From the IMG/VR virus record IMGVR_UViG_3300042695_001683, positions 1-27,296 of that record: a stretch of DNA of 27,296 bases, one strand, 5' to 3'. Of this stretch, positions 15,874 to 27,296 are shown piece after piece; positions within the stretch are counted from its first letter, which is position 1; each line of letters starts with the position of its first letter. The DNA comes from a virus. Under the pieces are notes generated by a model. That model was not told where the DNA came from and searched no databases. It saw nothing but the letters and a program-made list of their open reading frames with translations. A program made the position numbers and the translations under genes.

Positions 15874-16985
15874 TATCCACCAAACCTATTGCCTCTAGTA
15901 GAGTTGAGGCCCTGAGCACGGTTTCTGTTTGTACCAAACATACCACCACCAAGCATAGCACCAGTAGCAAAGAGAGCAGCTCTAGCTTCGGCGCTTTCAA
16001 TGCCACGAGCTGCTTGAACAGCCTTGCCTGCAAACTCAGTACCAAAGTCGAAGTTCTTGCTTACAGCTTGTCCCCATTCAGCGACGCCACTAATCATTCC
16101 TCTACTAGCAACTCCAGATACCACAGCACCACCAGCAGCACCAAAAGTAGCTCCTTTAGCAAAGGTCCATGCTCCACGGTTCTCTTCAGTAGAGCCAATC
16201 CAAGCAGTACCACCACCAACAAGAGCCCCACCAACTACAGCATTAGCAGAACCAAAGCCCATAGCAGGGACATGGCTTGGTGAGGCAACACTGCCCTTTT
16301 CAGTTAAACCCCGTTTCTGTCTACCAGAAATATATTCTGTTTCCACTCTGTGACCTGGAACATGTACTAGTGGATTTTCTGATGGTTTAGGTTTTACATG
16401 TACCATTCTTTCGTTAATTGAATGAGTTCCAGGAACAGGAACTAATTGCGTCTCTTTTCTAGGGAAAATGTCCGCCCCTGTGTCATAAATGTGCTCTTTT
16501 TGATTTACATTTTGTCCTAAACGATTTAAAAAGGGATGACGAGCTGTATGGTTGGGCTCAATTACTGGAGAGCCTCCCATTTGCTCGTTTCTTCTTACAC
16601 TTCTTTTACCTGGATTTCCTTTGATTTGAGGCCCAGCAGCCATTTCTAGCATGCTAAGTCTTTTGGCTTCAATTTCTTCAGGACTCATTTTAGATCCCGA
16701 ATTCGAGACAATACGCTGTGTCACAGAATTCGGTCGCTCTTTATAACCTCTGTATTCTCTTCCAGGAGATACGTCTGCTACGTTGACAGTATTTTTTCTA
16801 GGTGCGGTCCTATCAATAGGAGGATCTAGATTCAGCCATCCTCCTACATTTCTGGATGAACCAAAAGGGTTTATAGGCAAGATATTACCCTGGGCGCTTT
16901 GACTTGGAGCTGGAGGAGCAATTCTTACACCAGCATCAAATGCATCATCAAAGAGACCAGCAACTCCTTTAAAATTCCTTGCCAT
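15873..16985 (-). CDS. Glycine-zipper virion protein, probably internal (370 aa)
   Basis: The first 240 residues are hydrophilic, basic and Pro-rich, probably disordered, with repeated P-G-H-R or P-G-T-H turns. Then come three Gly/Ala-rich hydrophobic segments (about 245-263, 273-299 and 335-350) with G-x-x-x-G spacing of the kind that packs membrane helices, and an Arg/Asn/Gly-rich end. The gene is directly downstream of the large terminase (TAATG overlap). With the 327-residue protein upstream of the terminase it makes a pair of similar design. I suggest a membrane-inserting or DNA-ejection protein; no family was recognised. Confidence 0.5.
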   Translation of the reverse strand: MARNFKGVAGLFDDAFDAGVRIAPPAPSQSAQGNILPINPFGSSRNVGGWLNLDPPIDRTAPRKNTVNVADVSPGREYRGYKERPNSVTQRIVSNSGSKMSPEEIEAKRLSMLEMAAGPQIKGNPGKRSVRRNEQMGGSPVIEPNHTARHPFLNRLGQNVNQKEHIYDTGADIFPRKETQLVPVPGTHSINERMVHVKPKPSENPLVHVPGHRVETEYISGRQKRGLTEKGSVASPSHVPAMGFGSANAVVGGALVGGGTAWIGSTEENRGAWTFAKGATFGAAGGAVVSGVASRGMISGVAEWGQAVSKNFDFGTEFAGKAVQAARGIESAEARAALFATGAMLGGGMFGTNRNRAQGLNSTRGNRFGG

Positions 16986-19174
16986 TATCTCCTCCCTAGA
17001 GGCTTACCGCCCCTGCGTGGTACAGCGTAAATATCGTTATCATCATTGAATGAATCACTATCTGGATCGTAACCTTTTGGTAAATTCTTATAGTACTCAG
17101 CTACTGTTTTTGGTGCGTTGTTTCTACGAGAAATACCTTGTTTCTTACTACCTTCATAGTCCAATTCATTCAACAGTGTACCATTGCCACCATAGATATT
17201 CAGGCCCGTAATAGAGACGCCTGCCTTCGCTACGTCTCTAATGAATTCTGCAGTACCGCTTAGGTCAGATTCGTTTTCCTTTCCTCTTTTCTCCAGTGTC
17301 TTGTCATCCACTACAGAGACGTTGCCATCTCCATACATGTTTGGTGAGTACTCCGATAGCTCAATGAACAACCCTCCAAGGGCCAACATCCAAGCATCTA
17401 GTCTATGGTCTCCGACCGTAGCGTTTTCGGGCCCGTAGATAGGACGATTGGTTTGTGGGTTACGCCTTACGATGATGTAGTTTCCAAGTTCGTTTTTTAG
17501 TTGCTCATCATCTTTAGGGAATACAAACTTTTCATCTTCAAAGATACGCATTGCGTTTTCTACAAGGAAGTCTTTCGCGGTCTTTTGGATTTCGCGGCCG
17601 TCTACTGGCGACCTCAGAGTTACCTTCGAAGAGAAGTTGAACGACTTGATGATGTCTACGATTCGAGCTGCGGACTTTTCTCTTTCTGTTTTCTTTTCCT
17701 TTTCTCTCATAGCAAGAGAGTAAACTTGCAAGTCCTCAATAATTGTGTGGCCGTACCCGTCGTCTGCATAGATATAGTCCAGGTTCCACTTATGAGTGAG
17801 GCGAATTACTTCTTCTTTCCACTTAATAGAAGAGAACTCTGACTGGGAGATGTTGATTGCTTCGAGTCCAATCCACCTATGTCCATCTGCATCATAGCCA
17901 GCTACATAGAACTCAGTACCCGCATTCTTGTTCCAGTCAATGCCCATACACTTGATGAGCTTCTCGGGTCGCGCCACCCCTAATTTAGTACGCAAAGTAT
18001 GATTACTAATGGTTTCATAATACGTGTACTCTCTAAGGGCACTCATAATCCAAGAAGGACGGAATACAGAAGAGCCACCATCAATAAACTCGGCCATAAA
18101 CTCAGACATGATAGAGTCTTTGCTCTTGCCCTTGGTAAGAAGGTCTTTAGTTTCGTCCCATTGAGGTAGAACTGTAGTTGGGATGTGATCTTCTTTGAAT
18201 GAGGCATCTTGCATGCACCATTTATAGAAGGCGGCGCGCTTACCAATAGGAGTAGAAGTAGCAATGATTCGAGTGTTCTTACGAGTAGCCATAATAGGAA
18301 TAATGGCATCATCAAGAATCTTCTCTGGAATCATATCCATTTCGTCTAGATAGATGATGTCGGCAGACTGTCCACGCATGGTACCACCAGAAGAGCCGTC
18401 TTGCTTGACGCCAACGCCTGAAACGAATCCTTTGATCACGCCACCATTCTTGAACTCCATACGTAAAGGAGGAGTTTTAGCATACAAGGAGCCGCTGGCT
18501 CCTGTAGTGACTTGGGCAGCTAGCTCGGGACAACGAAGAAGCAAATCTTCCATTTCCTGAAAGATCGCGTTAATCTGAGCTTGGTAAGGAGTAACGATCA
18601 TGATCTGAGGGCCGGCGTAAACATTCTGCCCGTTTGATTTACCCTTAGGAATCTTTACAGTCTCAACAGCATGTAGCAACTTAAGAGCAATGGCAAACGT
18701 TTTCCCTGAACGCCGTCCTTCTCTAAGGGCAATTCTTCTCGAAGTACAGCGAATCTGCTCCTTCTGATAGGGTCTAAGGTACCACTCGTTATCAGTATCC
18801 TTAGTAGAATCATCAAAACCAAACATAAGCTCACACCAAGCAACAGGATCTTGTGTGGCCCGTAGTACTAAAGTGGCGCGCTCACGAGAAATGCCATCTT
18901 TGATCATCATCTGATCTACAATTTCAGCAGATCCAGGAGGCAGAGAGTTCTTGATCCCACTGCAAGGAATATTGTTCTCACCATACTTAATGTGTTGGCG
19001 CGCAATACAAGCAACACAGGTACGATGCCATTCAGGATTGATATCGAACTTCTTCCTAAGCCAAATGATTTCCGCTTCTGTTAGCTTAACGTAAGGGTCC
19101 TGATATTTAACCTTGTATTCATTCTCTGTGTAGAGCCTGTTTCTGATCCAATCTAACGTAATCTGCTCAGCCAT
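16985..19174 (-). CDS. terL: Terminase large subunit (729 aa)
   Basis: The packaging motor that pumps and cuts DNA at the portal. The ATPase part has Walker A G153-RRSGKT159, Walker B I-I-Y-L-D277-E278 and the coupling motif T306-S-T-P309. The RNase H-type nuclease domain carries D413 (GIDWNK), D471-D472 (ADDGYG) and the late D589/D593 (GDHRLDAW), so all catalytic acids are present. An N-terminal cysteine group (C53, C56, then H61 and C71) may bind zinc and is an extra relative to the core fold. The last 100 residues are polar and Gly/Asn-rich. Its start overlaps the upstream gene by 8 bases. Confidence 0.95.
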   Translation of the reverse strand: MAEQITLDWIRNRLYTENEYKVKYQDPYVKLTEAEIIWLRKKFDINPEWHRTCVACIARQHIKYGENNIPCSGIKNSLPPGSAEIVDQMMIKDGISRERATLVLRATQDPVAWCELMFGFDDSTKDTDNEWYLRPYQKEQIRCTSRRIALREGRRSGKTFAIALKLLHAVETVKIPKGKSNGQNVYAGPQIMIVTPYQAQINAIFQEMEDLLLRCPELAAQVTTGASGSLYAKTPPLRMEFKNGGVIKGFVSGVGVKQDGSSGGTMRGQSADIIYLDEMDMIPEKILDDAIIPIMATRKNTRIIATSTPIGKRAAFYKWCMQDASFKEDHIPTTVLPQWDETKDLLTKGKSKDSIMSEFMAEFIDGGSSVFRPSWIMSALREYTYYETISNHTLRTKLGVARPEKLIKCMGIDWNKNAGTEFYVAGYDADGHRWIGLEAINISQSEFSSIKWKEEVIRLTHKWNLDYIYADDGYGHTIIEDLQVYSLAMREKEKKTEREKSAARIVDIIKSFNFSSKVTLRSPVDGREIQKTAKDFLVENAMRIFEDEKFVFPKDDEQLKNELGNYIIVRRNPQTNRPIYGPENATVGDHRLDAWMLALGGLFIELSEYSPNMYGDGNVSVVDDKTLEKRGKENESDLSGTAEFIRDVAKAGVSITGLNIYGGNGTLLNELDYEGSKKQGISRRNNAPKTVAEYYKNLPKGYDPDSDSFNDDNDIYAVPRRGGKPLGRR

Positions 19175-19592
19175 TGATGATATTCCTGTTGATAGGCACT
19201 AGGTATTCTTTTGCCTCAAACAATTGGTGGAGTTCTGTTTCGTAAACACTCCAAACTAGAGTGTTGCTCTCAATTTCGTAGGTCATGACTTTCCCTACAA
19301 TAATTGGTGACATGATATGTCTTTCCAAAACAAGATTTACGTGGTCGCTGTCGCCCAAATCATAGATCTCAATTCTGAAGTCATCAAATGTTGCAGTCCA
19401 GGCGTTCTTGTAAGACTTAACTACTGGCTTCTTCTCCAAGAACTGCGTCGATGCCATGATAAAAGGCGCAATTTCTTCATACAGCATTCCAGCAGTAAAT
19501 AGAATTAACGTCTTTTTTTGAGACAGAGAGTTAGAGATATCATTCCAAATAGTCATCTTGCTGGAGAAAGTAAGCATCATGTGTAGGGTCAC
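19167..19592 (-). CDS. Unknown protein before terminase (141 aa, start uncertain)
   Basis: The frame can begin at GTG 19592, which overlaps the upstream stop (GTGA), or at ATG 19580 or 19577 inside it. AGGA is only one base from the GTG and 13 from ATG 19580, so no start is ideal and re-initiation after the upstream stop is likely. The product is a mixed alpha/beta domain with alternating strands (WTATFDDFRIEIYDLG, VNLVLERH, TLVWSVYETELH). No family is recognised. Its place just before the large terminase invites a packaging role, but it lacks an evident helix-turn-helix. Confidence 0.55.
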   Translation of the reverse strand: MTLHMMLTFSSKMTIWNDISNSLSQKKTLILFTAGMLYEEIAPFIMASTQFLEKKPVVKSYKNAWTATFDDFRIEIYDLGDSDHVNLVLERHIMSPIIVGKVMTYEIESNTLVWSVYETELHQLFEAKEYLVPINRNIING

Positions 19593-20572
19593 ATCCTATA
19601 GCTAGAGTGGTAGTTCTTGGATGGGTAGTGCATGAAGTTAGCCTCCCTTCCAAGGGCCGATCTGGCATTCATGTGAGATCTCTGAATAGCCTGAACAGCA
19701 CGGGAGCGCATAGTAGTGGCCCCTTCAGTCATAAAGGCTGCCAAAGAACCATCTGTTTGTATAGACTTACGCATCTTCTGGTGAGAATTTGCCATTCGAA
19801 TCACTTCAGAAGCCCCACGTCCAATTGTACTAATAGCGGCACCACCCATCATTGCAGTGCCTGCTGCAGCAAACATAAGAGGGTGGCGCGCAATATTCCT
19901 CAAAGGGGCGCCACCAACCATACCACCCATCAAGGTACCAATGGTCTCAAACCCAGGAATACCTGAAGCACCTCCTAGAGCTGCACCAATTGAAGCGCCA
20001 ATACCTGCGCCAATGCCTCGCCCTGCCATTCTAAGACCACCAGTATTCACCATACGCTGAACGATACCGGATCCAGCTTCACCATGTGTTCGTAGAGCGG
20101 CGCCCCTAACACCACTCCACATACCCGCATTAAGGGCCAAGTCATAAATGGCAGCATCCTTAGCACCTTGAATACCATTCTCTGAATACCCAGAAGCAAT
20201 AAAGTACATAGAAGAAGCAATACCGATACCTGGTCCAAGAAAAGAAGCTTTCCCTTTATGGCTGAGCTTAGTCATGGTCCTAAGATCAGGATAACCGCTC
20301 ATCAACGCACCACCAAGGGCACCACCTACTCCCATAGCAGAAGCAGAGTAATCGTCCCCAGTAAGCACAGAGAGACCAATTGAAGCAGCTACGCCAGCAG
20401 CACCACCAGCTAATGCTTTGGAGATAGCCCTCTGAGGGTTAATCTTTACGCTTGTGCGTAGCTTACCAAACTCAAAGAAGTCTTCGCCGTTCGCACCACG
20501 ACCAGAAGCCTCGAAGCCAAAGACTCCAAACATACCCTTATTCAAAGAACCTGAGAATGAATTTAGGCTCAT
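19589..20572 (-). CDS. Glycine-zipper membrane-type virion protein (327 aa)
   Basis: At least six Gly/Ala-rich hydrophobic segments lie at about 52-70, 80-95, 112-127, 184-202, 210-222 and 232-251, many with G-x-x-x-G or G-G-A-x-G-G spacing. The C-terminal 70 residues are hydrophilic and basic. AGGA lies 7 bases before ATG 20572 and overlaps the last codons of the upstream nuclease gene. The pattern suggests a protein that can insert into membranes, such as an ejection or pilot protein carried inside the head. No specific family is recognised. Confidence 0.5.
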   Translation of the reverse strand: MSLNSFSGSLNKGMFGVFGFEASGRGANGEDFFEFGKLRTSVKINPQRAISKALAGGAAGVAASIGLSVLTGDDYSASAMGVGGALGGALMSGYPDLRTMTKLSHKGKASFLGPGIGIASSMYFIASGYSENGIQGAKDAAIYDLALNAGMWSGVRGAALRTHGEAGSGIVQRMVNTGGLRMAGRGIGAGIGASIGAALGGASGIPGFETIGTLMGGMVGGAPLRNIARHPLMFAAAGTAMMGGAAISTIGRGASEVIRMANSHQKMRKSIQTDGSLAAFMTEGATTMRSRAVQAIQRSHMNARSALGREANFMHYPSKNYHSSYRM

Positions 20573-20574
20573 AA

Positions 20575-23500
20575 TTACATCCTATGGTGGTTGATCGGAG
20601 AATCTCCGAATTTGGAGTTAATATGTCGCTGCATGGCGGCCATTCTTTCCTTTTGCTCACGTTTCCGAGCTTTATCAGCACCGTAAATCTTATATGCTTC
20701 AAGAGAACGTTTTGAATAGACAGAGTTAGTTGTTCCTAACGAGTCAACGGCCAGATAACTATTCAATTCGTTAAGGTTGCTAGCAGAGTTCTTGTTGGCA
20801 TTAGTACCAGTGCCTTTTGTCTGAACAAAGTTCGTGTTGTCCTGCATTAAGTTACCAATGTACGTCCTGTAGTTTGCAGCAGTGTTACCTTCCATTCTAT
20901 AGGGCTTTACATTGTCACCGAATTTGTCCCACTTCTGTCCAATGTGTCGCGCAGTCTCTTCTGCCACACTGGCAGACATACCTCCTGACTGAGCTTGCTC
21001 CATAACAGAGATCAACTTCATAGTTTGATAGTTTTCAGCCATCTTGCTAGGCCGAGCAAACGTGTTAAAGGTGATCTGAGTACCAGCAGATTCAGAGAAA
21101 GCTCTATAGGTCTGAGCCCAAGGCGTAGCCCAAAGACCGCGGCGAGCTTCTACTGCCTTTTGTTCTGCATGTCTAAGGGCATCCCAGTCAGCATGAGCAT
21201 CCATGTAGCTACCGTAGGGTAGGTGGGCAGCTAAACCACGCTCTACAGCTTGCTGGTTTACGTTACGGCCGTCTGCAAACACAGTACCGACAGCACGTCC
21301 GTACGTGGCATCCTTCGGGTCATAAGCGATTTTAAGCTTCCCTGACGACATTAGCTGTTTCATGCCTGCAATAGCTTCTGTAGCTCCAGGCTGTGGAGTG
21401 TGCCATGACTTGTCGAACATGCCGTGGGAGATTTCTGTTGAGTCGATACCTTCAAGACGGAAGGTATGCGACCCTCCTAGTCCGAAAAACCTCTGTACCC
21501 CACCAAAAAAGCCCCTTTTCTTCAGCATTACGGTGTCGACGTCTTCAACTTCCATTTCCCAGTTGGAGTCTACGTCGATTACCCTCATATTCTCTGTATT
21601 TCTTAGATTTCCTAGTTCTCCCTCACCGGCAGCCCTACCTTGCAAGGCAGTTGACTTCTTAAAGGGGCTGCGAAATGGCCAGAACAACCCCGAGCTAGTG
21701 TCGTGATGGACTGCGTTGTACTTCATTCTGTTGTACTTTTCGCGTTCTTCAAGCAAATCTTGATGCACTAGAACATCAAAAGACGTAGCTGGACCACGGT
21801 ACGGAGAACCGAAGTCGGTATTCATGCTACGTGTGGCCTTTGCCATACCTGTTTCAGCAAAACCATCGGATTGCTTTCTTAATAGTTCGTATTCTTTGTA
21901 GTCCATCGTTAGGACAGAGCGGCTGTTGTCGTAGTCTTCTACGCGACTTTCTTGGGACATTGAGTGTCCGATTAGTCCTAGGGCACCAACAGCCACCGCG
22001 GCCATACCAGCGCGAGGCACGTTATTGATGATTGTAGTGCCTACTTTGGAAGCTCTGCCTGCGGCATTACCTACGAAGTTACCTAATCCCATAGGAGCCC
22101 ATCTGGAGCTCAGCCTTCCAGCAAGTCTCCTACCATCGTAGTTCAGCATCCTACGGGCATTTGCACTGAAGTAGCTGTCTAGAGCAGTGCCAGTTTCTTC
22201 TTCTACGTGTACGTTTGCTAACTCTTTCCTAGACTGGAAAGGTAGTCCTTCTCTATTTCTTCTTTCAGTTTCGCTTTGGATAAAATTCTGCATTTTATCC
22301 CATTCTTTTCGCTGGTCTAAGCCGTACTGTGAGAAGTCGTTTCTTTTGATTACTTCCTCGTAGTAATCCTCTTCTGTGGTACTAAATTTCTGAGCGAAGT
22401 CAGCTCTAAAAACGTCTTTTGGCTTCCCAGAAGGAGTCGCCTGTCTCATTGCGATTACTCTGTCGATGCCATCAGTATGGGTAGCATACTTTTTGGTCTC
22501 GATGTCGCCGATTCCTCTCTCGTACTGCTGCAACAAGTGTCGTCTTCTCAAGACATGTACGGAGTCATTGTACATTTCGAAGTATTTCAGAACTCCAGCG
22601 AGAGGGCCTTGTCCCTTCCTTGCTTCCTCAATCGCCAATCTCCCTTCTTCTTTCCCTCCTTCTAGCAGATCGAAAGCCCTTAGGCTTTCGATCTTTCTTT
22701 GTAGAACGTATGCTTCGCTCTTCGCTGCGTCTTCTGCCGCTCTGTGGGCTTCTGATCCAAGCAAGCCTTGCTCTGCTTTCTTTCCTGTTTCAAAGGCTGC
22801 CCTTAAGAGACGCTCTTGGTAGTCGATACCTACACCAGCCATCTGCTTAGTGTTTACATCGATTAGTCCGTACGTCTTACCGTAAGAAAGAAGTGCGCGC
22901 GTTAAATCCTGAACGTCTCTGACTGCTACTTCGCCTGCTTTTGGAGTGAATTCTTTATATGCTTTCCACACGCCAATCCAGTTGCCGGTCATTTGAGCGT
23001 TGGTTCTTGCTTTGCTTACTTCACTTCCCGTTACGTAGAATGGTTCAGGAAATGTTGAGCGTGTCTCGAACACGCTCTTCCATTGGTCTACAGAAGCTTT
23101 GTTGGATTGGGCCATTGCTCCGAGTGTCGCGCCAAATTGCTTAGCTTCGAATACTGCGTTAGCGATCCAGACAGTGCTTCCTTTTGTAGGGTCTTGGGCT
23201 CTTGTAATAGCTTGTCTTAGTGGTCCCTGCATCCCCATGATGTCTTCCATAGGGATATTCGCGCCGCCCAGCTCATATTTGATGCCAGCAGCCCTGAACT
23301 CTGCTTCTCTAAGGGCGATCTCTCCTGCTGTAGGATAGTTCCCTAGCAGATGTGGATGGGCGTTCTTTTCTTTAAGCTGCTTCCACAGGAAGGTGTTCGT
23401 TGTTTCTAGCGCTTTTAAGATTTCATCAGCGTTCGTTAGTCTAGCTGCGTCGAGCTTGTACTCTCTGACAAGCATAGAGACCAGTGCGTCTTTCCATGTG

Positions 23501-23733
23501 AGGAAGTTCTTTGCAGTATATCTGCTACCGCGGAAGGACCTCATATTCGCTTCGTCTTGGAAAGCGCCTGTTTCGATGTTTACTTCTTGGGGTCGCGGCA
23601 AAAACTCAGTAACTTTGTTTTCAGCAAAGTTATAGTACGCAATTTCAGTGAATCCCGAACCAGCCTCTCTTGAAAGAGTCTCAGTATCGAGCACGCCTGA
23701 GTTAATCAGGTATTGCCTTGTCCAATCGTCCAT
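20575..23733 (-). CDS. Giant virion-module protein with DEDDh exonuclease and SNase domains (1052 aa)
   Basis: The N-terminus reads as a DnaQ-like DEDDh exonuclease: motif I D16-T-E18 followed by E-I-A-Y-Y-N, motif II N192-x-x-F-E196 (Glu where Asp is usual), a D273-x2-D276-L-T-R-A-L helix, and motif III H330-x-A-x2-D335. A charged helical middle (about 340-540) leads to a hydrophobic Gly/Ala segment at 573-592. Residues about 728-870 match staphylococcal nuclease: D731-V-D733-T-V, F-R759-L-E-G-I-D764-S-T-E767, Y811-G-R813, D-G-R-N-V-N, R-G-L-A and E-A-R-R-G-L-W. These align with SNase D19/D21, R35, D40, E43 and R87 at the same local spacing. The remaining 180 residues are hydrophilic. It starts with GAGG after a terminator and heads the virion operon. 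I infer a nuclease that degrades or processes DNA during entry or packaging. The SNase call is strong, the exonuclease call good. Confidence 0.8.
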   Translation of the reverse strand: MDDWTRQYLINSGVLDTETLSREAGSGFTEIAYYNFAENKVTEFLPRPQEVNIETGAFQDEANMRSFRGSRYTAKNFLTWKDALVSMLVREYKLDAARLTNADEILKALETTNTFLWKQLKEKNAHPHLLGNYPTAGEIALREAEFRAAGIKYELGGANIPMEDIMGMQGPLRQAITRAQDPTKGSTVWIANAVFEAKQFGATLGAMAQSNKASVDQWKSVFETRSTFPEPFYVTGSEVSKARTNAQMTGNWIGVWKAYKEFTPKAGEVAVRDVQDLTRALLSYGKTYGLIDVNTKQMAGVGIDYQERLLRAAFETGKKAEQGLLGSEAHRAAEDAAKSEAYVLQRKIESLRAFDLLEGGKEEGRLAIEEARKGQGPLAGVLKYFEMYNDSVHVLRRRHLLQQYERGIGDIETKKYATHTDGIDRVIAMRQATPSGKPKDVFRADFAQKFSTTEEDYYEEVIKRNDFSQYGLDQRKEWDKMQNFIQSETERRNREGLPFQSRKELANVHVEEETGTALDSYFSANARRMLNYDGRRLAGRLSSRWAPMGLGNFVGNAAGRASKVGTTIINNVPRAGMAAVAVGALGLIGHSMSQESRVEDYDNSRSVLTMDYKEYELLRKQSDGFAETGMAKATRSMNTDFGSPYRGPATSFDVLVHQDLLEEREKYNRMKYNAVHHDTSSGLFWPFRSPFKKSTALQGRAAGEGELGNLRNTENMRVIDVDSNWEMEVEDVDTVMLKKRGFFGGVQRFFGLGGSHTFRLEGIDSTEISHGMFDKSWHTPQPGATEAIAGMKQLMSSGKLKIAYDPKDATYGRAVGTVFADGRNVNQQAVERGLAAHLPYGSYMDAHADWDALRHAEQKAVEARRGLWATPWAQTYRAFSESAGTQITFNTFARPSKMAENYQTMKLISVMEQAQSGGMSASVAEETARHIGQKWDKFGDNVKPYRMEGNTAANYRTYIGNLMQDNTNFVQTKGTGTNANKNSASNLNELNSYLAVDSLGTTNSVYSKRSLEAYKIYGADKARKREQKERMAAMQRHINSKFGDSPINHHRM

Positions 23734-23744
23734 GTAGTTACCTC

Positions 23745-23772
23745 AAAAATATAAGGCCCTTACGGGCCTTAT
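23745..23772 (-). terminator. Rho-independent terminator ahead of the double-nuclease gene
   Basis: On the minus strand a 9-bp stem (ATAAGGCCC with GGGCCTTAT) and GTAA loop are followed by ATTTTT. It lies between the Cys-cluster gene stop and the nuclease gene SD, so most nuclease and later transcription should need a promoter of its own or read-through. Confidence 0.85.
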
Positions 23773-23788
23773 ACATTAAACTAGTTGG

Positions 23789-24592
23789 TTAGTCATCGTC
23801 GATTGGAATGGCTTCTCTCACTTTCTCCTTACTATCTAGCACAATTGTCTCTTTTGCTCCTTTCTCTAGCAGTTTGCGGATCATTTCTAGTTCTGTCTTC
23901 AGAGTAGAGCCGTTAGAAGTGTCACCTAGTTTGCTAGCAACATCATGTTTAGCTTTACGAGTCTCCATCAAACTCTCTAGTAGTTTAATGCGCCTCGATT
24001 CTTGAGTGTTCATAAGAGCGATTACAGGATGTAGCTGTGTGGTTTTCTTTAGAATCACACCATGCTCTCCCTGAATCTCTTCCAAATCTTGCTTCAAGAA
24101 GTTGCGGCCATCTCCATCATTGTCCCCATTAGCAAGAACTAGCATAGCTCTTTGCTTGTACAGGTCAATAACAGCCAATTCGTTAACAATCGCCATTTCG
24201 ATAGGATTGCTTGGATCTACTTGTAGGTGAAGCAGGTAGTCTACAGTTTTCTGCTGTAAGAAAGTCATTTCGAACACGCAAGGCCGGTAGAGAGGATAAT
24301 CCTCGTCGTTGCCAGGTAATGGGCGCCCACTTTCGTCACGTTCAGGGATTGGACAAGAGTTAAAAAATGGACATTTCGTAGGTCCAGCACAAGAAATTGG
24401 CGCGACCGTGTGCATACCATGCTTACGTCTAAGTAGCGAGTTCTCAATTCTTGTTCTTTTAGCTGGGTCTAAGTTATCCAAGTAATTTTCGTAGTTATCA
24501 TCTCCGTAAGACAAAGCATTAATGGCGTCTTCTTGACGCCTAGCTAAATCAGTCTCTCCGGGAAGAGAGATAAGTTTACGCCTGCTCCCCAT
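23789..24592 (-). CDS. Four-cysteine cluster protein, candidate small terminase (267 aa)
   Basis: I start at ATG 24592, which has AAGGAG 7 bases upstream. The N-terminal half holds C68-x5-C74-x5-C80 and a further C105 in P-F-F-N-S-C-P and Y-R-P-C contexts, typical of a metal or Fe-S site. The C-terminal half is helical with a long charged coiled coil (about 195-250: M-N-T-Q-E-S-R-R-I-K-L-L-E-S-L-M-E-T-R-K-A-K). Coiled-coil helical proteins of this length in this place, ahead of the virion operon, are often small terminase subunits, but the large terminase is three genes away and the DNA-binding domain is not obvious. Treat the role as tentative. Confidence 0.4.
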   Translation of the reverse strand: MGSRRKLISLPGETDLARRQEDAINALSYGDDNYENYLDNLDPAKRTRIENSLLRRKHGMHTVAPISCAGPTKCPFFNSCPIPERDESGRPLPGNDEDYPLYRPCVFEMTFLQQKTVDYLLHLQVDPSNPIEMAIVNELAVIDLYKQRAMLVLANGDNDGDGRNFLKQDLEEIQGEHGVILKKTTQLHPVIALMNTQESRRIKLLESLMETRKAKHDVASKLGDTSNGSTLKTELEMIRKLLEKGAKETIVLDSKEKVREAIPIDDD

Positions 24593-24788
24593 TCGGGATC
24601 TCCTTAACGTCACGAACTACGAAATGAGAAGTCCATTCATCCCGCGGCTCCTCAATTTCCTCTGCAACAGGGACAGGTTCCTCAGAAGTCATATCAATAG
24701 CAAAGGCAGTAATCGGCGCAACCGTCAATTTCTCCTTTACGGGCACGGCTACAATCTTGTTTTCTTTGTTCCTAGTCATCAGTACCAT
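24576..24788 (-). CDS. Small acidic-ended unknown protein (70 aa)
   Basis: ATG 24788 has an excellent GGAGGTG site 5-6 bases upstream, which itself lies in the end of the tiny upstream frame. The first 35 residues are basic and beta-like (V-A-V-P-V-K-E-K-L-T-V-A-P-I-T), the middle is very acidic (EEPVPVAEEIEEPRDE) and the end mixed. It overlaps the start of the Cys-cluster gene by 17 bases. Function unknown. Confidence 0.65.
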   Translation of the reverse strand: MVLMTRNKENKIVAVPVKEKLTVAPITAFAIDMTSEEPVPVAEEIEEPRDEWTSHFVVRDVKEIPNGEQA

Positions 24789-24886
24789 TTGTACACCTCC
24801 ATAACAACTTCACCAGTAATACCATCTACAATCTCAAAATACTCTTCCATTTCATACAGAACGTAGTTCTTGCTCCAATAAGTCAC
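24779..24886 (-). CDS. Tiny overlapping protein (35 aa, GTG start)
   Basis: A frame from GTG 24886 to TGA 24779 has AGGAG five bases upstream. It overlaps the end of the 81-codon gene by 35 bases and the start of the 70-codon gene by 10 bases. The product is aromatic and acidic (M-T-Y-W-S-K-N-Y-V-L-Y-E-M-E-E-Y-F-E-I). The tight tiling suggests real translation or at least coupling, but with 35 codons this is uncertain. Confidence 0.45.
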   Translation of the reverse strand: MTYWSKNYVLYEMEEYFEIVDGITGEVVMEVYKWY

Positions 24887-25097
24887 ACTCACTCCTAATA
24901 TCATTAAGTAGCTTCAACAAAGCATCCTTCTCATTCTCACTCTTAAACAATTCAAGAGACTTCTTAGCGTACCTACACTCAATACCAAGATCAGAATTCT
25001 TAACAAAGAAGAAGTACCTATAAGCATGGAATGATTCAAGTTTGCCAACAAGCTCTTTTAGAGCTTTGAGTTTACCACTAAACTTATAGAATTGCAC
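24852..25097 (-). CDS. Small helical protein at head of leftward operon (81 aa, GTG start)
   Basis: I place the start at GTG 25097 because GGAGG lies four bases upstream; the open frame extends further up, but that part has no ribosome site and reads like non-coding AT-rich DNA. The product is a Lys/Glu/Leu-rich helical protein with heptad-like Leu spacing (LKALKELVGKLES, then LLKLLNDIRSECDLLEQEL), probably a coiled coil. It is the first leftward gene. No family is recognised. Confidence 0.6.
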   Translation of the reverse strand: MQFYKFSGKLKALKELVGKLESFHAYRYFFFVKNSDLGIECRYAKKSLELFKSENEKDALLKLLNDIRSECDLLEQELRSV

Positions 25098-25492
25098 AAT
25101 TCCTCCAAACGCGGGGACTTTTGATGCTATACTTATTGAATACCAAGTGGCCCTTAGAGATGTAAAGATGGCCGCCCCTATAGAGCAAAAAATGTGCTGA
25201 AAATTATATGAAAAAGGGGCTTGTTCCTGATTCCCGGTAAAACTGAGGGGAAAGGCTGGGAATTTGTTTTTGAAAAGAAACAAAAATCGCTTTATAGTAA
25301 GTGAATTTTAGTTGGGTTAGTACCTTTTGACATTGCAAAAAATTGCTTATTGGAAATTGAAAATATGGTAGGTTAGTACCTGGTATTGATAGGAAGCTAT
25401 TTACTGCCCTGTGGACTTGCGAGCCCACCCGGGTAAAGTAAAATGCTTCTATTGAACACATCCTTGCGAAGGGGTGCGGCCAATCATTTTCT
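25098..25492. promoter_or_regulatory. AT-rich divergent intergenic region with 11-bp direct repeats
   Basis: No convincing gene is seen here. It separates the leftward virion operon from the rightward cassettes. GGTTAGTACCT occurs exactly twice, at 25315-25325 and 25371-25381, 56 bases apart. Read leftward these are AGGTACTAACC, and the GGTACTAAC core recurs in the + strand cassette leader at 26415. A TATAAA box for leftward transcription lies at 25291-25296. A TTTGTTT/AAACAAA dyad lies at about 25263-25284. A TTGACA at 25327-25332 has no good partner box. These may include the leftward promoter and operator sites. Confidence 0.45.
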
Positions 25493-25519
25493 CTATGGGC
25501 AATACATGCCTTTTTAATT
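25493..25519 (+). promoter_or_regulatory. First CTATGG motif with weak terminator-like hairpin
   Basis: CTATGG at 25493-25498 is the leftmost of seven motif copies. A weak GGCA/TGCC hairpin follows and is trailed by TTTTT. The unit is too short for a gene with an SD. It may be a degenerate or minimal cassette head. Confidence 0.35.
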
Positions 25520-25616
25520 CTATGGACAATCAAGTCCATAGCCAAAGAGGATGGGATGTCTATACCAACAGATGAATCCCCTGATAACTAGGGGATAAGG
25601 GCGTAAGCCCTTTTTT
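25520..25616 (+). ncRNA. Short structured RNA or leader cassette with no obvious gene
   Basis: This cassette opens with a perfect 8-bp inverted repeat CTATGGAC / GTCCATAG (25520-25541, 6-base loop). It then has ATCCCC / GGGGAT (25576-25596) stacked on AAGGGC-GTAA-GCCCTT plus T6 (25597-25616), a clear terminator. Only tiny frames fit: one of 17 codons from 25522 without SD, and one of 11 codons from ATG 25556 with an AGAGG site. A small RNA of about 95 bases is the simplest reading; a leader-peptide gene is the alternative. Confidence 0.5.
25597..25616 (+). terminator. Rho-independent terminator of short RNA cassette
   Basis: AAGGGC, GTAA loop, GCCCTT and then TTTT: a perfect six-pair stem with a T tract running straight into the next CTATGG motif. 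Confidence 0.85.
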
Positions 25617-25712
25617 CTATGGATCTAACCCATCCAGAATCCGAAAGGATGCAGCTATACATTCGTGTATGGTGGGCATATGAGGAAGTGATGGGTAGAC
25701 CTTGGAGGACGT
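25617..25712 (+). promoter_or_regulatory. Cassette leader 1: CTATGG, GGATCTAACCC, dyad hairpin
   Basis: The block CTATGGATCTAACCCATCC (25617-25635) recurs exactly at 26032. A seven-pair hairpin CTATACA-TTCG-TGTATGG follows at 25655-25672, whose right arm contains a TATGGT box followed by GGG. An ATG inside CTATGG opens a frame without SD. The true gene SD is GGAGG at the end of this leader. A promoter and/or operator is expected here. Confidence 0.45.
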
Positions 25713-25925
25713 ATGTCCAACAACTTCTACGCAACCATCCTCGCGCTGGTCGTCGCGACCTGCTTCGTCCTCATGGCCTACATGAAGGTGAGTCAGTGCA
25801 CCGAGATCGCGGAGAAGGCCGGCCGCCGCCACAGCTGGACGACCCATGCCTGGCATGGGGAGGTCGAGCGGTGGCGCACCGCCGGCCGGCACGGCCCCCG
25901 CCCTCGGTGGGGCGCGCGGTACTAG
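25713..25925 (+). CDS. Small single-pass membrane protein, cassette 1 (70 aa)
   Basis: ATG 25713 has GGAGG four bases upstream, and the stop lies 8 bases before a strong terminator. Residues 5-24 are a clear membrane segment (F-Y-A-T-I-L-A-L-V-V-A-T-C-F-V-L-M-A-Y-M) with a short MSN head and a basic, Trp/His/Arg-rich tail, so the tail probably faces the cytoplasm. It is much more GC-rich than the leftward genes. The mRNA contains hairpins CCCATGC/GCATGGG (25843-25859) and GCGGTG/CACCGC (25868-25882). It resembles cassette 2 in design. The function is unknown; small phage early membrane proteins often target host functions. A longer frame from 25619 runs into the terminator and is less likely. 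Confidence 0.65.
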   Translation: MSNNFYATILALVVATCFVLMAYMKVSQCTEIAEKAGRRHSWTTHAWHGEVERWRTAGRHGPRPRWGARY

Positions 25926-25932
25926 GCCCTCT

Positions 25933-25970
25933 GGCCCCCACTACCTACGGGTAGTGGGGGCCCTTCTTTT
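25933..25970 (+). terminator. Strong terminator with UACG tetraloop
   Basis: A 13-pair stem (GGCCCCCACTACC with GGTAGTGGGGGCC) closes on a C-UACG-G tetraloop, followed by CTTCTTTTT. Confidence 0.95.
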
Positions 25971-26031
25971 TACTATCCACTACAGTGTAGTACACATAGG
26001 TGTATTCAGTATGACATACACCTTTTTATTT
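25971..26031 (+). other. Short segment between terminators; possible small RNA
   Basis: After the first terminator come ACTACAGTGTAGT (a short dyad) and then a second terminator hairpin, GGTGTAT / ATACACC with T5 (25999-26027). There is no gene. It may be a backup terminator or a separate very short transcript starting near the ACTACAGTGTAGT dyad. Confidence 0.45.
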
Positions 26032-26125
26032 CTATGGATCTAACCCATCCGAAACCAAAAGGGCTTAACTGTACGCGGAGTACAGTGGGAGCATGAGGTA
26101 GATGGGTAGATTCACGGAGGCTAAC
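26032..26125 (+). promoter_or_regulatory. Cassette leader 2: repeat of CTATGG block with dyad hairpin
   Basis: It opens with the same 19-base block as leader 1. A perfect seven-pair dyad ACTGTAC-GCGGA-GTACAGT (26068-26086) follows; the right arm gives TACAGT then GGGAGCATGAGG, closely matching TATGGT GGGCATATGAGG in leader 1. A 20-codon frame without SD starts in CTATGG (26034-26096). GGAGG precedes the cassette gene. Confidence 0.45.
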
Positions 26126-26362
26126 ATGTCTAACGTTACCAGCGCCGTTGCAGCCGCCCTGCTCGTCATCCTCACCACCGCGACCTTGGTCGCGGTGGAT
26201 GTTCGTCTCCGTAAGGAGATGAAAGAGGCTACACGGGTGGAGGCCGCGGCGGATGCGCGTGCGCGGGCCGTCCAGGCCCAGCACCGCATGCTGGAGTGCG
26301 TCCGTATGCCCCTGCACAGCGATGCGCGAGAGTGGTGCATTCTCTTCCGCACTCCAAACTAG
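26126..26362 (+). CDS. Small single-pass membrane protein, cassette 2 (78 aa)
   Basis: ATG 26126 has GGAGG five bases upstream. The protein starts MSN like cassette 1 and has a membrane segment at about 6-24 (S-A-V-A-A-A-L-L-V-I-L-T-T-A-T-L-V-A-V). A long charged helix (about 25-55, Arg/Glu/Ala-rich) and a Cys-containing end follow. The stop is just before a UACG-loop terminator. The coding region holds an 11-pair inverted repeat with a TT centre at 26175-26198. It looks like a distant paralogue or analogue of cassette 1. Function unknown. Confidence 0.7.
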   Translation: MSNVTSAVAAALLVILTTATLVAVDVRLRKEMKEATRVEAAADARARAVQAQHRMLECVRMPLHSDAREWCILFRTPN

Positions 26363-26367
26363 GCACT

Positions 26368-26402
26368 AGGCCCCCTACCTACGGGTAGGGGGCCTTTCTT
26401 TT
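26368..26402 (+). terminator. Strong terminator with UACG tetraloop
   Basis: A 12-pair stem (AGGCCCCCTACC with GGTAGGGGGCCT) on a UACG loop, then TTCTTTT. The sequence is nearly that of the previous cassette terminator. Confidence 0.95.
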
Positions 26403-26410
26403 AATCACTA

Positions 26411-26479
26411 CTATGGTACTAACGCCTATGTACATGGGGTACGTATGGTGTAGTACAGGCTAGTAGCACGAGGTGACGC
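26411..26479 (+). promoter_or_regulatory. Cassette leader 3: CTATGG, GGTACTAAC, dyad hairpin
   Basis: CTATGG overlaps GGTACTAAC, the same nine bases found leftward at 25315 and 25371. A seven-pair dyad TATGTAC-ATGGG-GTACGTA lies at 26427-26445, followed by TATGGT and, further on, GCACGAGG. A 16-codon frame without SD starts at 26413. The gene SD is GAGGTG at 26470-26475. Confidence 0.45.
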
Positions 26480-26659
26480 ATGTTCATGCGTATGGCCGTG
26501 CTCAGGCTCTCCAAGCGGGGCTTCGCAGCCCTGCTTGCCAGGCACCTGCCGAAGGGTGCCCGGGTGTCCCACTTGTGGGACACGGGTCGGCTATCGATGT
26601 GGAGGCTAGAAATGGCCTCTGCTCAGGTAGCCGTTGTCGAGGTCTGCCTCGACACCTGA
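26480..26659 (+). CDS. Small basic protein in heavily structured cassette 3 (59 aa)
   Basis: ATG 26480 follows GAGGTG by four bases; other ATGs at the third and fifth codons are possible. The product is basic and Leu/Ala/Arg-rich with one Cys, probably helical, and matches no family known to me. Four or five consecutive inverted repeats span almost the whole frame: 26513-26536, 26541-26560, 26564-26583, 26603-26619 and 26621-26661, the last including the stop codon. So a structured non-coding RNA is a real alternative. A 91-codon frame in another phase runs through the terminator and is rejected. Confidence 0.45.
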   Translation: MFMRMAVLRLSKRGFAALLARHLPKGARVSHLWDTGRLSMWRLEMASAQVAVVEVCLDT

Positions 26660-26709
26660 GCGTTATCTCCCCCACCTACGGGAGAAGTAAAGATAGTAGG
26701 GATGGATCT

Positions 26710-26734
26710 GGGGGCTTCGGCCCCTTTTTCTTTT
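26710..26734 (+). terminator. Terminator with UUCG tetraloop
   Basis: GGGGC-UUCG-GCCCC with an additional G-T pair is followed by TTTTTCTTTT; a classical C-UUCG-G hairpin. Confidence 0.9.
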
Positions 26735-26742
26735 ATCTACTT

Positions 26743-26811
26743 CTATGAGAGTGAGTCCCACTCTTGCTAAGCCGTTGGTGAGCGGCAAGCATAGTTCGTT
26801 GGAGAAAGACC
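26743..26811 (+). promoter_or_regulatory. Cassette leader 4: CTATGA and dyad hairpins
   Basis: CTATGA is followed at once by a six-pair dyad AGAGTG-AGTCC-CACTCT (26748-26764), then by a GCCG/CGGC hairpin (26771-26785). GGAG lies 7 bases before the gene. This leader is the most divergent in sequence but keeps the motif-plus-hairpin layout. Confidence 0.4.
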
Positions 26812-26937
26812 ATGAACTACGACGAAATCCTCGAAACCCTGAAAGACTTCGGTCTGGAAGGGCTTCAGGAGCTCGCAGAGGCTGCCCGCCTCGTCACCGA
26901 TGAAGAGATCCGTCTCTTCATCGAGGCGAATGGGTGA
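26812..26937 (+). CDS. Very small acidic helical protein, cassette 4 (41 aa)
   Basis: ATG 26812 has GGAG seven bases upstream. The whole product is acidic and amphipathic (MNYDEILETLKDFGLEGLQE, then EAARLVTDEEIRLFIEANG), likely two helices. Small acidic phage proteins often bind and inhibit host enzymes or DNA-binding proteins, but no family is recognised. The frame contains a UUCG-capped stem at 26838-26869 and a 16-pair stem with one bulge at 26887-26928, so the mRNA is very structured. Confidence 0.6.
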   Translation: MNYDEILETLKDFGLEGLQELAEAARLVTDEEIRLFIEANG

Positions 26938-26941
26938 CCTC

Positions 26942-26970
26942 CCTGCCCCTAGGTAAAAGCTGGGGGCAGG
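26942..26970 (+). other. Stable hairpin after cassette 4 gene
   Basis: CCTGCCCC pairs with GGGGCAGG across a 13-base loop, five bases after the stop. No T tract follows, so it is a 3' stem rather than a terminator; a weaker CGTCT/AGACG hairpin follows it. Confidence 0.6.
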
Positions 26971-27001
26971 CGTCTAAGCATTAAGACGTTAAAAGAAATG
27001 T

Positions 27002-27030
27002 AAAGGCTCACTTTGGTGGGCCTTTTTCTT
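27002..27030 (+). terminator. Rho-independent terminator of cassette 4
   Basis: Ten pairs (AAAGGCTCAC with GTGGGCCTTT, one G-T pair) close on a UUUG loop and lead into TTCTTCTATGG. Confidence 0.85.
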
Positions 27031-27082
27031 CTATGGCATCTAATGCATACATTCCGTATGTCACAGATGCTAAGGAGCTCAA
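27031..27082 (+). promoter_or_regulatory. Cassette leader 5: CTATGG, dyad and overlapping short frame
   Basis: CTATGG is followed by GGCATCTAATGC, a relative of GGATCTAACC. A dyad GCATAC-ATTCC-GTATGT lies at 27045-27061. A 17-codon frame from ATG 27033 ends at TGA 27084-27086, overlapping the start of the cassette gene as ATGA. AAGGAG sits six bases before the gene. Confidence 0.45.
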
Positions 27083-27271
27083 ATGAGCACTAAAGTTGTT
27101 GATAGCGCTGGCCGAGAGATCGGCCAGCGTGAGGTTTTCCACTTCGTCGGCCGGAAGGCCGGCGAGGTAGTGGCGGAGCGGGTTGTCGCGACCAATCGCG
27201 GCTGGGCTTTGGCCCGCCGCGACTTCAAGGCACAGCACAACCTCAAGGACGAGGAGGTGGAGACCCTCTGA
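27083..27271 (+). CDS. Small basic protein, cassette 5 (62 aa)
   Basis: ATG 27083 has AAGGAG upstream and overlaps the stop of a short leader frame (ATGA). The first 35 residues look like a small beta domain (T-K-V-V-D, R-E-V-F-H-F-V-G-R, E-V-V-A-E-R-V-V-A); the rest is a basic then acidic helix. No family is recognised. Three stable stems with tetraloop-size loops lie in the frame (27106-27129 with GAGA, 27139-27173 with GGAA, 27196-27222 with UUUG). The window ends 25 bases after the stop, before any terminator could be seen. Confidence 0.6.
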   Translation: MSTKVVDSAGREIGQREVFHFVGRKAGEVVAERVVATNRGWALARRDFKAQHNLKDEEVETL

Positions 27272-27296
27272 ACTTCTAGGCCCTGCTACCGAAAGG

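Follow-up and report, generated by a model that had tools for sequence, protein, structure and literature searches.

Why would a large myophage encode what appear to be two different nucleases on one protein chain, and why among its structural genes? The question is raised by IMG/VR virus record IMGVR_UViG_3300042695_001683, a virus record of 27,296 bases that was analysed as a whole and is called the window here. It holds a minus-strand structural operon of a large myophage, in which terminase, portal, a protease-like gene, major capsid and sheath are recognized by Pfam and PHROGs; the protein in question, P0001, is its 1052-residue product. We find strong support for a staphylococcal nuclease (SNase) domain with an intact catalytic set in P0001, and a divergent DnaQ-like domain is supported by a family profile, the predicted topology and relatives (related loci and their proteins carry L-numbers below). 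P0001 is best read as a multi-domain phage effector. The open reading frame (ORF) reported in the first-pass annotation is confirmed, and the protein is laid out as a DEDDh-like exonuclease, a helical middle, a hydrophobic helix, an FGSPYRG motif, the SNase and a C-terminal tail:

20575..23733, minus strand: two-nuclease protein P0001, 1052 residues, ATG start, intact ORF
22684..23733, minus strand: predicted DnaQ-like/DEDDh domain, residues 1-350
21955..22011, minus strand: hydrophobic helix, residues 575-593, possible membrane segment, mean Kyte-Doolittle value 1.42
21796..21819, minus strand: TDFGSPYR motif, residues 639-646, with F641-G642-S643 invariant in the nine sequences of alignment A4
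21124..21591, minus strand: SNase domain, residues 715-870, catalytic residues D731, D733, R759, D764, E767 and R813
20578..20601, minus strand: C-terminal tail SPINHHRM, after a low-confidence linker

Two nuclease domains on one chain

The SNase domain is matched by PF00565 at 47.6 bits (curated cut-off 21; E-value 2.5e-12) over residues 757-869. The same family matches all nine members of the full-length alignment A4, L020 scores 37.6 bits, and a PDB search with the nine-sequence profile gives a staphylococcal nuclease match at 3e-15. In the AlphaFold model of P0001 (mean predicted local distance difference test, pLDDT, 69.2) the SNase part lies mostly at 70-90, with lower loops, and it superposes on 1ii3 with Z 16.6 at 2.7 Å over 133 residues; the predicted model thus has the SNase fold in the region where the first-pass annotation had called for an OB-fold barrel. 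The motifs are D731-V-D733-T, R759-L-E-G-I-D764-S-T-E767 and T-Y-G-R813, so that D731/D733, R759, D764, E767 and R813 are the counterparts of D19/D21, R35, D40, E43 and R87 in the catalytic set of SNase. All six catalytic residues are among the 41 invariant positions of A4 (chance 2.4e-9; this value and the hypergeometric one given below for the exonuclease treat positions as independent). Pfam, predicted fold and invariance concur on the SNase assignment, and a chance motif was rejected on these grounds. P0001 shares fold and catalytic residues with staphylococcal nuclease, but its domain is the C-terminal module of a 1052-residue phage protein rather than a secreted enzyme.

The N-terminal domain carries the motifs D16-T-E18, N192-A-V-F-E196 and H330-R-A-A-E-D335. 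These were compared in alignment A6, which consists of eight sequences (the window protein, L010, L078, L080, L081, L083, L011 and ME3_11 of Acinetobacter phage vB_AbaM_ME3, hereafter ME3; 19-40% identity to the window protein) and draws on 11 available proteins, namely ME3_11 and the ten of SNase type listed below. Three of the 11 are left out of it: L079 because of its intein, and the more distant L041 and L020, whose motif II reads GFD rather than NxxFE. In P0001 the D-x-E of motif I and the H-x4-D of motif III occur in order, and both are invariant in A6. In all, 15 of the 350 window positions are invariant, including all seven named exonuclease residues (D16, E18, N192, F195, E196, H330 and D335; hypergeometric 5e-11); the nine-sequence full-length alignment, which has L041, keeps just three of these seven invariant, namely D16, E18 and H330. 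When the A6 profile was searched against 177,635 PDB sequences, the three best of six matches (up to E-value 10) were E. coli DnaQ (0.0071-0.015), with motifs I and II aligned to their counterparts, which suggests a DnaQ relationship. PHROG 192 ("DNA polymerase exonuclease subunit") matches L078 (6.1e-6), ME3_11 (4.7e-5) and L044 (9.1e-14) and gives no match to L097 or L020; RNase_T matches L044 at 24.4 bits (cut-off 24).

The predicted structure runs from a strand at 12-19 (with D16/E18) through strands 28-35 and 40-46, helix 80-92, strand 186-190, helix 193-219 (F195/E196 at its start), strand 269-273 and helix 274-287 to helix 332-358 (D335 at its start), with further predicted elements intervening. 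This is the strand and helix order of known DEDDh structures, and it fits the proposal that D16, E18, H330 and D335 belong to one such RNase H-like fold, as judged by order and not by distances. P0001 has in common with DnaQ/DNA polymerase III epsilon and RNase T this order, motif I, the position of motif II and motif III; it differs from them in its length (∼345 residues), its long insertions, a Glu in motif II and the fused second nuclease. Inteins favour active-site motifs, and in L079 (3340-7188) an intein directly follows the motif II Glu (Pfam Intein_splicing, 0.0023, in one of the nine A4 members).

Several observations weigh against a fully standard exonuclease, and with it against a two-nuclease enzyme. 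The motif II acid (ExoII) is Glu196 in P0001 and Glu across A6 and L079, and so departs from the Asp of the classical motif, which is present in L041, L020 and the examined PD-(D/E)XK-type relatives described below; exonuclease activity may be weak or altered by this replacement. The pieces of the DnaQ match are weak singly (i-values 21 and 4.3) with motif III unaligned, and when A6 is compared by hhalign with an alignment of three DnaQ members (A7), the probability is 21% and motif I alone is aligned. In each PDB fold search, the best 50 rows all fall on the SNase part. RNase_T is found in one of the nine A4 members, at E-value 0.25, and has no match to P0001 itself in the Pfam scan, where SNase is the single family found; PHROGs gives P0001 phrog_452 "endonuclease" at 0.044 and nothing else, and PADLOC gives no match. 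Because motif II has Glu and not Asp, we claim homology to the DEDDh fold family for P0001 rather than a canonical active DEDDh enzyme. The DEDDh assignment of the first-pass annotation is retained on the strength of the family profile, the predicted topology and the relatives; the Glu and the silence of Pfam on P0001 count against it.

L041 has SNase and a D-x-E start, and its exonuclease is uncertain because neither exonuclease profile detects it. Among other PDB sequence matches, those of alignment A8 (three of seven SRP54, plus one 3'-5' exonuclease at E-value 1) and of A5 (five of six designed helical proteins, and one esterase) were read as chance.

Two sister contigs align to the window at 98.3-98.4% over 16942-25526, with 26 and 39 base differences in the P0001 gene (synonymous/nonsynonymous 24/2 and 38/1). 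As 24 of the 26 and 38 of the 39 are synonymous, P0001 is under strong purifying constraint. A frame error or pseudogene was rejected, given the intact ORF and the mostly synonymous differences.

The family and its second nuclease

Relatives were gathered by a terminase-based scan (60 loci) and two further scans. They overturn the impression of a one-phage oddity: the DEDDh-SNase protein belongs to a modular family with ten distinct SNase-type members (the window protein, L010, L011, L020, L041, L078, L079, L080, L081 and L083). Ten other proteins (L016, L025, L027, L032, L043, L044, L095, whose start is cut, L096, L097 and L098) have a Cas4/lambda-exonuclease-like PD-(D/E)XK domain standing where the SNase would. 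The core motif G-x-[IVA]-D...E-[IL]-K and QANxY are present in these relatives, and the model of L097 (mean pLDDT only 50.2) superposes on LHK-Exo (Z 12.8, 4.4 Å, 180 residues) and on SSO0001 (Z 12.2, 3.5 Å, 151 residues). PHROG 1706 matches L097 (7.6e-12) and L044, and PADLOC Cas4 profiles match this type; the Pfam scan of the PD-(D/E)XK-type relatives found no PD-(D/E)XK domain.

The second nuclease has been exchanged between family members, because L020 joins a front half of the PD-(D/E)XK type to an SNase. Iterated-profile E-values are inflated by training members (for L020, 4e-93 becomes 2e-6 when it is left out), and left-out values are used here: with profiles built without L020, its PD-(D/E)XK-type exonuclease region scores 2e-6, its linker 5e-5 and its SNase 3e-20. 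L024 has the front half with no second nuclease detected. The second nuclease in relatives is thus SNase, PD-(D/E)XK or undetected.

Two elements between and behind the nucleases recur. In 20 of 23 proteins examined the FGS motif has a hydrophobic stretch 26-94 residues ahead of it (the combination was not found in L043, L030 and ME3_11). In 19 of these 20 that stretch is more hydrophobic than any other window of its protein, and the flank on its N-terminal (exonuclease) side is the more positive in 19 of 20, with one tie; a stricter definition of the motif gives 16 of 18, with two ties. The flanks of the P0001 helix have net charges of +2 before and -2 after. Of the "central membrane-like segment" in the first-pass annotation there remains this one stretch, 575-593, which may be a membrane segment and is modest in hydrophobicity. 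An ending like SPINHHRM is found in seven of the ten SNase-type proteins, the window's included.

P0001 alone as a query finds two sister contigs only among viral contigs and no relative among genome contigs. Scanning the genome contigs with the A4 profile gives at least 62 loci, with listed ranges confined to the SNase region; among the matches listed, none of the 62 has an ORF that fits the FGS motif pattern.

The slot gene of some relatives contains other enzyme-like domains. An extra DUF4406 (1.3e-11) lies N-terminal to the exonuclease in L024 (2105-4933), a weak HAD-like match (0.0016, below cut-off) lies N-terminal to it in L027 (958-5448), and a 903-residue slot ORF in L013 (2938-5646) combines a PD-(D/E)XK region with one that is kinase-like (Pkinase 3.1e-5, under the curated cut-off). 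L013 also has three copies of a KGHD..RWGR.WVT tag and L098 two copies of a different one, possibly cargo or processing tags.

Gene position and related structural proteins

The P0001 gene lies close upstream of the gene for the terminase large subunit (TerL), with two genes in between, inside the structural operon. Its neighbours are:

16985..19174, minus strand: TerL
19589..20572, minus strand: glycine-rich membrane-like protein, 327 residues, 2 bases from the P0001 gene
23789..24613, minus strand: conserved four-cysteine protein, 274 residues, upstream edge of the nuclease slot

The glycine-rich neighbour is where the first-pass annotation had placed it. Contrary to that annotation, P0001 is not first in the virion operon: the four-cysteine gene precedes it on the same strand at a distance of 55 bases, and many related loci have a homologue of that gene on the upstream side of the slot (e.g. 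MTATph1 CDS0247, ME3_9 and KLEB27-3 gp005). Homologues of the glycine-rich gene (e.g. ME3_12, KLEB27-3 gp009 and MTATph1 CDS0252) share a conserved C-terminal stretch, AI..S.LN.RS..G.E.

In 34 of the 60 terminase loci the sequence extends 6 kb or more upstream of TerL (near-identical contigs being kept in the counts). A glycine-rich homologue is found there in 30 of the 34, and a profile-tagged ORF in 18, or 20 if L030 (Pfam exonuclease matches) and L050 (ME3_11) are added; the 18 include L024 and also L013, with PD-(D/E)XK and no exonuclease found. No profile-tagged nuclease ORF was found upstream of TerL in 14 of the 34, and searches of 12 of these 14 records with the SNase and RNase_T profiles PF00565 and PF00929 gave no match near TerL. 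The four-cysteine and glycine-rich genes bracket the slot in 54 loci, with a tagged ORF between them in 37, although this set contains redundancy and owes some of its loci to searches with the nuclease itself; among the 29 bracketed loci from the terminase scan alone the tagged ORF is present in 15 (17 with L030 and L050). A variable slot of this kind suits an accessory effector.

SNase is also found in another structural gene. The single SNase match of ME3 lies within ME3_37, the baseplate hub, and Moorella phage MTATph1 has its SNase in CDS0032, a protein that matches this hub. Of 19 records, eight gave a hub homologue; in the window phage (G001), L081/L082 and L084 the homologue is without SNase, and the one SNase of each of these records is the slot gene. 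As SNase is in the slot gene or in the hub depending on the phage, it appears to stay among structural-module genes but to move between them, on a small comparison of three phages with slot SNase and two with hub SNase, in which G001 is possibly cut at its end. The part of Hardies et al. 2007 (PMC2147016) concerned with the hub reports SNase in the baseplate hub of BtI1 (a homologue of 0305phi8-36 gp147), for a reason given as "not obvious". That protein resembles P0001 in that SNase forms part of a structural protein within the same broad group of phages; it differs in being a hub protein, and no DEDDh partner is described for it in that part. In the tail module of MTATph1, CDS0027 (L077, record positions 30512-34441; ∼1310 residues, annotated hypothetical) is matched in part by RNase_T (profile positions 64-163; 25.5 bits, which exceeds the cut-off).

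Among known proteins, ME3_11 (AND75172.1, annotated "hypothetical protein") resembles P0001 in lying two genes before TerL, in its motif order (NHRFE, HTALSD), in being followed by a glycine-rich family member and in its exonuclease matches (PHROG 192, and a weak RNase_T match at 0.039). It differs in having no SNase and no FGS motif that we could find, the ME3 SNase being in the hub. A 529-residue ME3 protein, taken as ME3_11 from its length, is the second structural match of P0001 in BFVD (4.3e-8); the best is A0A6J5NQ80 of an uncultured Caudovirales phage (1342 residues, E-value 1.6e-36, 1359 alignment columns), named only "Staphylococcal nuclease (SNase-like), OB-fold", for which whole-chain superposition is poor (root-mean-square deviation 24.6, template modelling score 0.35), as with flexible chains. 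Phage polyvalent proteins (Iyer et al. 2017, PMC5512222) have several enzymatic domains per chain, as P0001 does. A word search of the main text, one part of that publication, gives 0 mentions each of SNase and DnaQ, and Pfam scans of P0001 and its relatives give no matches to the ParB-like, RadC, 2H and ArdC domains which that part describes for polyvalent proteins. Each domain singly, and SNase in a phage structural protein, are already known. In the open-licence literature searched we found no description of the DEDDh-SNase fusion, of its counterpart with PD-(D/E)XK or of an exchange of nucleases at one constant gene position, and the apparent novelty of all three extends as far as that literature and implies nothing about absence in print.

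Rfam and tRNA scans of the window gave no matches. Beyond the operon, at 24852-27296, G+C climbs to 0.56 with no blastn-level match in the phage collection; the stretch 26234-26417 aligns also to a second site in the sister contigs, at 77.9%.

Candidate functions

The account we favour, at somewhat short of an even chance, is that P0001 is a structural-module effector, carried in the virion with both nucleases on one chain and delivered at infection. P0001 would be made late in infection, enter the particle with the help of its C-terminal tail or of the neighbouring glycine-rich protein, and be delivered along with the phage genome; the hydrophobic helix would then hold it at the cell membrane, where it could degrade host, plasmid or competing-phage DNA, the SNase cutting internally and the exonuclease resecting ends. 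Delivery is favoured because the nuclease is carried on a slot protein or on the hub, the slot is accessory and variable, a hydrophobic helix is present and the C-terminal ending recurs in seven of ten proteins. Three further points count on the other side: the hydrophobic segment of P0001 is modest and lies in a region with pLDDT below 50, literature searches of open-licence papers found no virion proteomics of a relative, and packaging would be an equally good role for a gene beside TerL. The "injected nuclease" of the first-pass annotation is kept as a best-fitting guess.

Packaging is the serious rival because of the closeness to TerL, although as an explanation in its own right we hold it to be fairly unlikely. 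P0001 would here take part in head filling, trimming branches or ends of replicating phage DNA for the adjacent terminase like T4 gp4, whose DNase activity is required for packaging according to the relevant part of PMC7824862. The gene's place in the structural operon two genes before TerL, the resemblance of the PD-(D/E)XK version to lambda exonuclease and Cas4, and the suitability of a DnaQ-like domain for end trimming all agree with such a role; it is harder to reconcile with the 14 of 34 loci that have no profile-tagged nuclease ORF upstream of TerL, with the hydrophobic helix, and with SNase located in the ME3 hub gene and the hub-like gene of MTATph1, away from the packaging motor. That helix, together with the structural-gene location, the similar C-terminal tails and the hub-borne SNase of other phages, also speaks against an enzyme made during infection, and not borne by the particle, that degrades host DNA inside the cell for nucleotide supply; SNase and exonuclease would be a sensible pair for complete degradation and P0001 is under strong purifying selection, but we regard this as distinctly unlikely.

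A late, structural gene position is not expected of an exclusion gene, and this counts against a membrane-held P0001 cutting the entering DNA of a second phage, which we consider improbable. Such superinfection exclusion would find a precedent in the host defence SNIPE, a membrane-held nuclease able to cut incoming phage DNA (as described in part of PMC13190303), and would agree with a hydrophobic helix, putatively in the membrane, whose flank charges are consistent; P0001 differs from SNIPE in that its Pfam scan (E-value up to 1) shows neither GIY-YIG nor DUF4041. Least of all do we expect a degenerate structural protein, whose nuclease folds would now be only scaffold or DNA-binding parts: the Glu in motif II and an exonuclease that escapes Pfam could be read that way, but the SNase catalytic residues and most DEDDh residues are kept, and the intein of L079 is at an active-site motif.

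A more specific form of delivery, which we think rather doubtful, is that one myophage lineage reserves a slot in its head-packaging operon for cargo and encodes there membrane-held proteins with an interchangeable second nuclease, which enter with the genome and come to have their two nucleases on opposite faces of the membrane. A standard front end (exonuclease, helix and FGS motif) would be combined with a swappable second nuclease, the SNase being on the hub in other members; DNA in the envelope, such as that of a competing phage, would be the target of the SNase, and host or plasmid DNA within the cell that of the exonuclease.

If delivery holds true, large phages would arrive already equipped with an enzyme that destroys DNA in two steps and whose second part is swapped as one swaps the head of a tool. 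This would bear on the hub SNase whose purpose was "not obvious" (Hardies et al. 2007, PMC2147016), and would make the slot a gene position to inspect for further delivered effectors.

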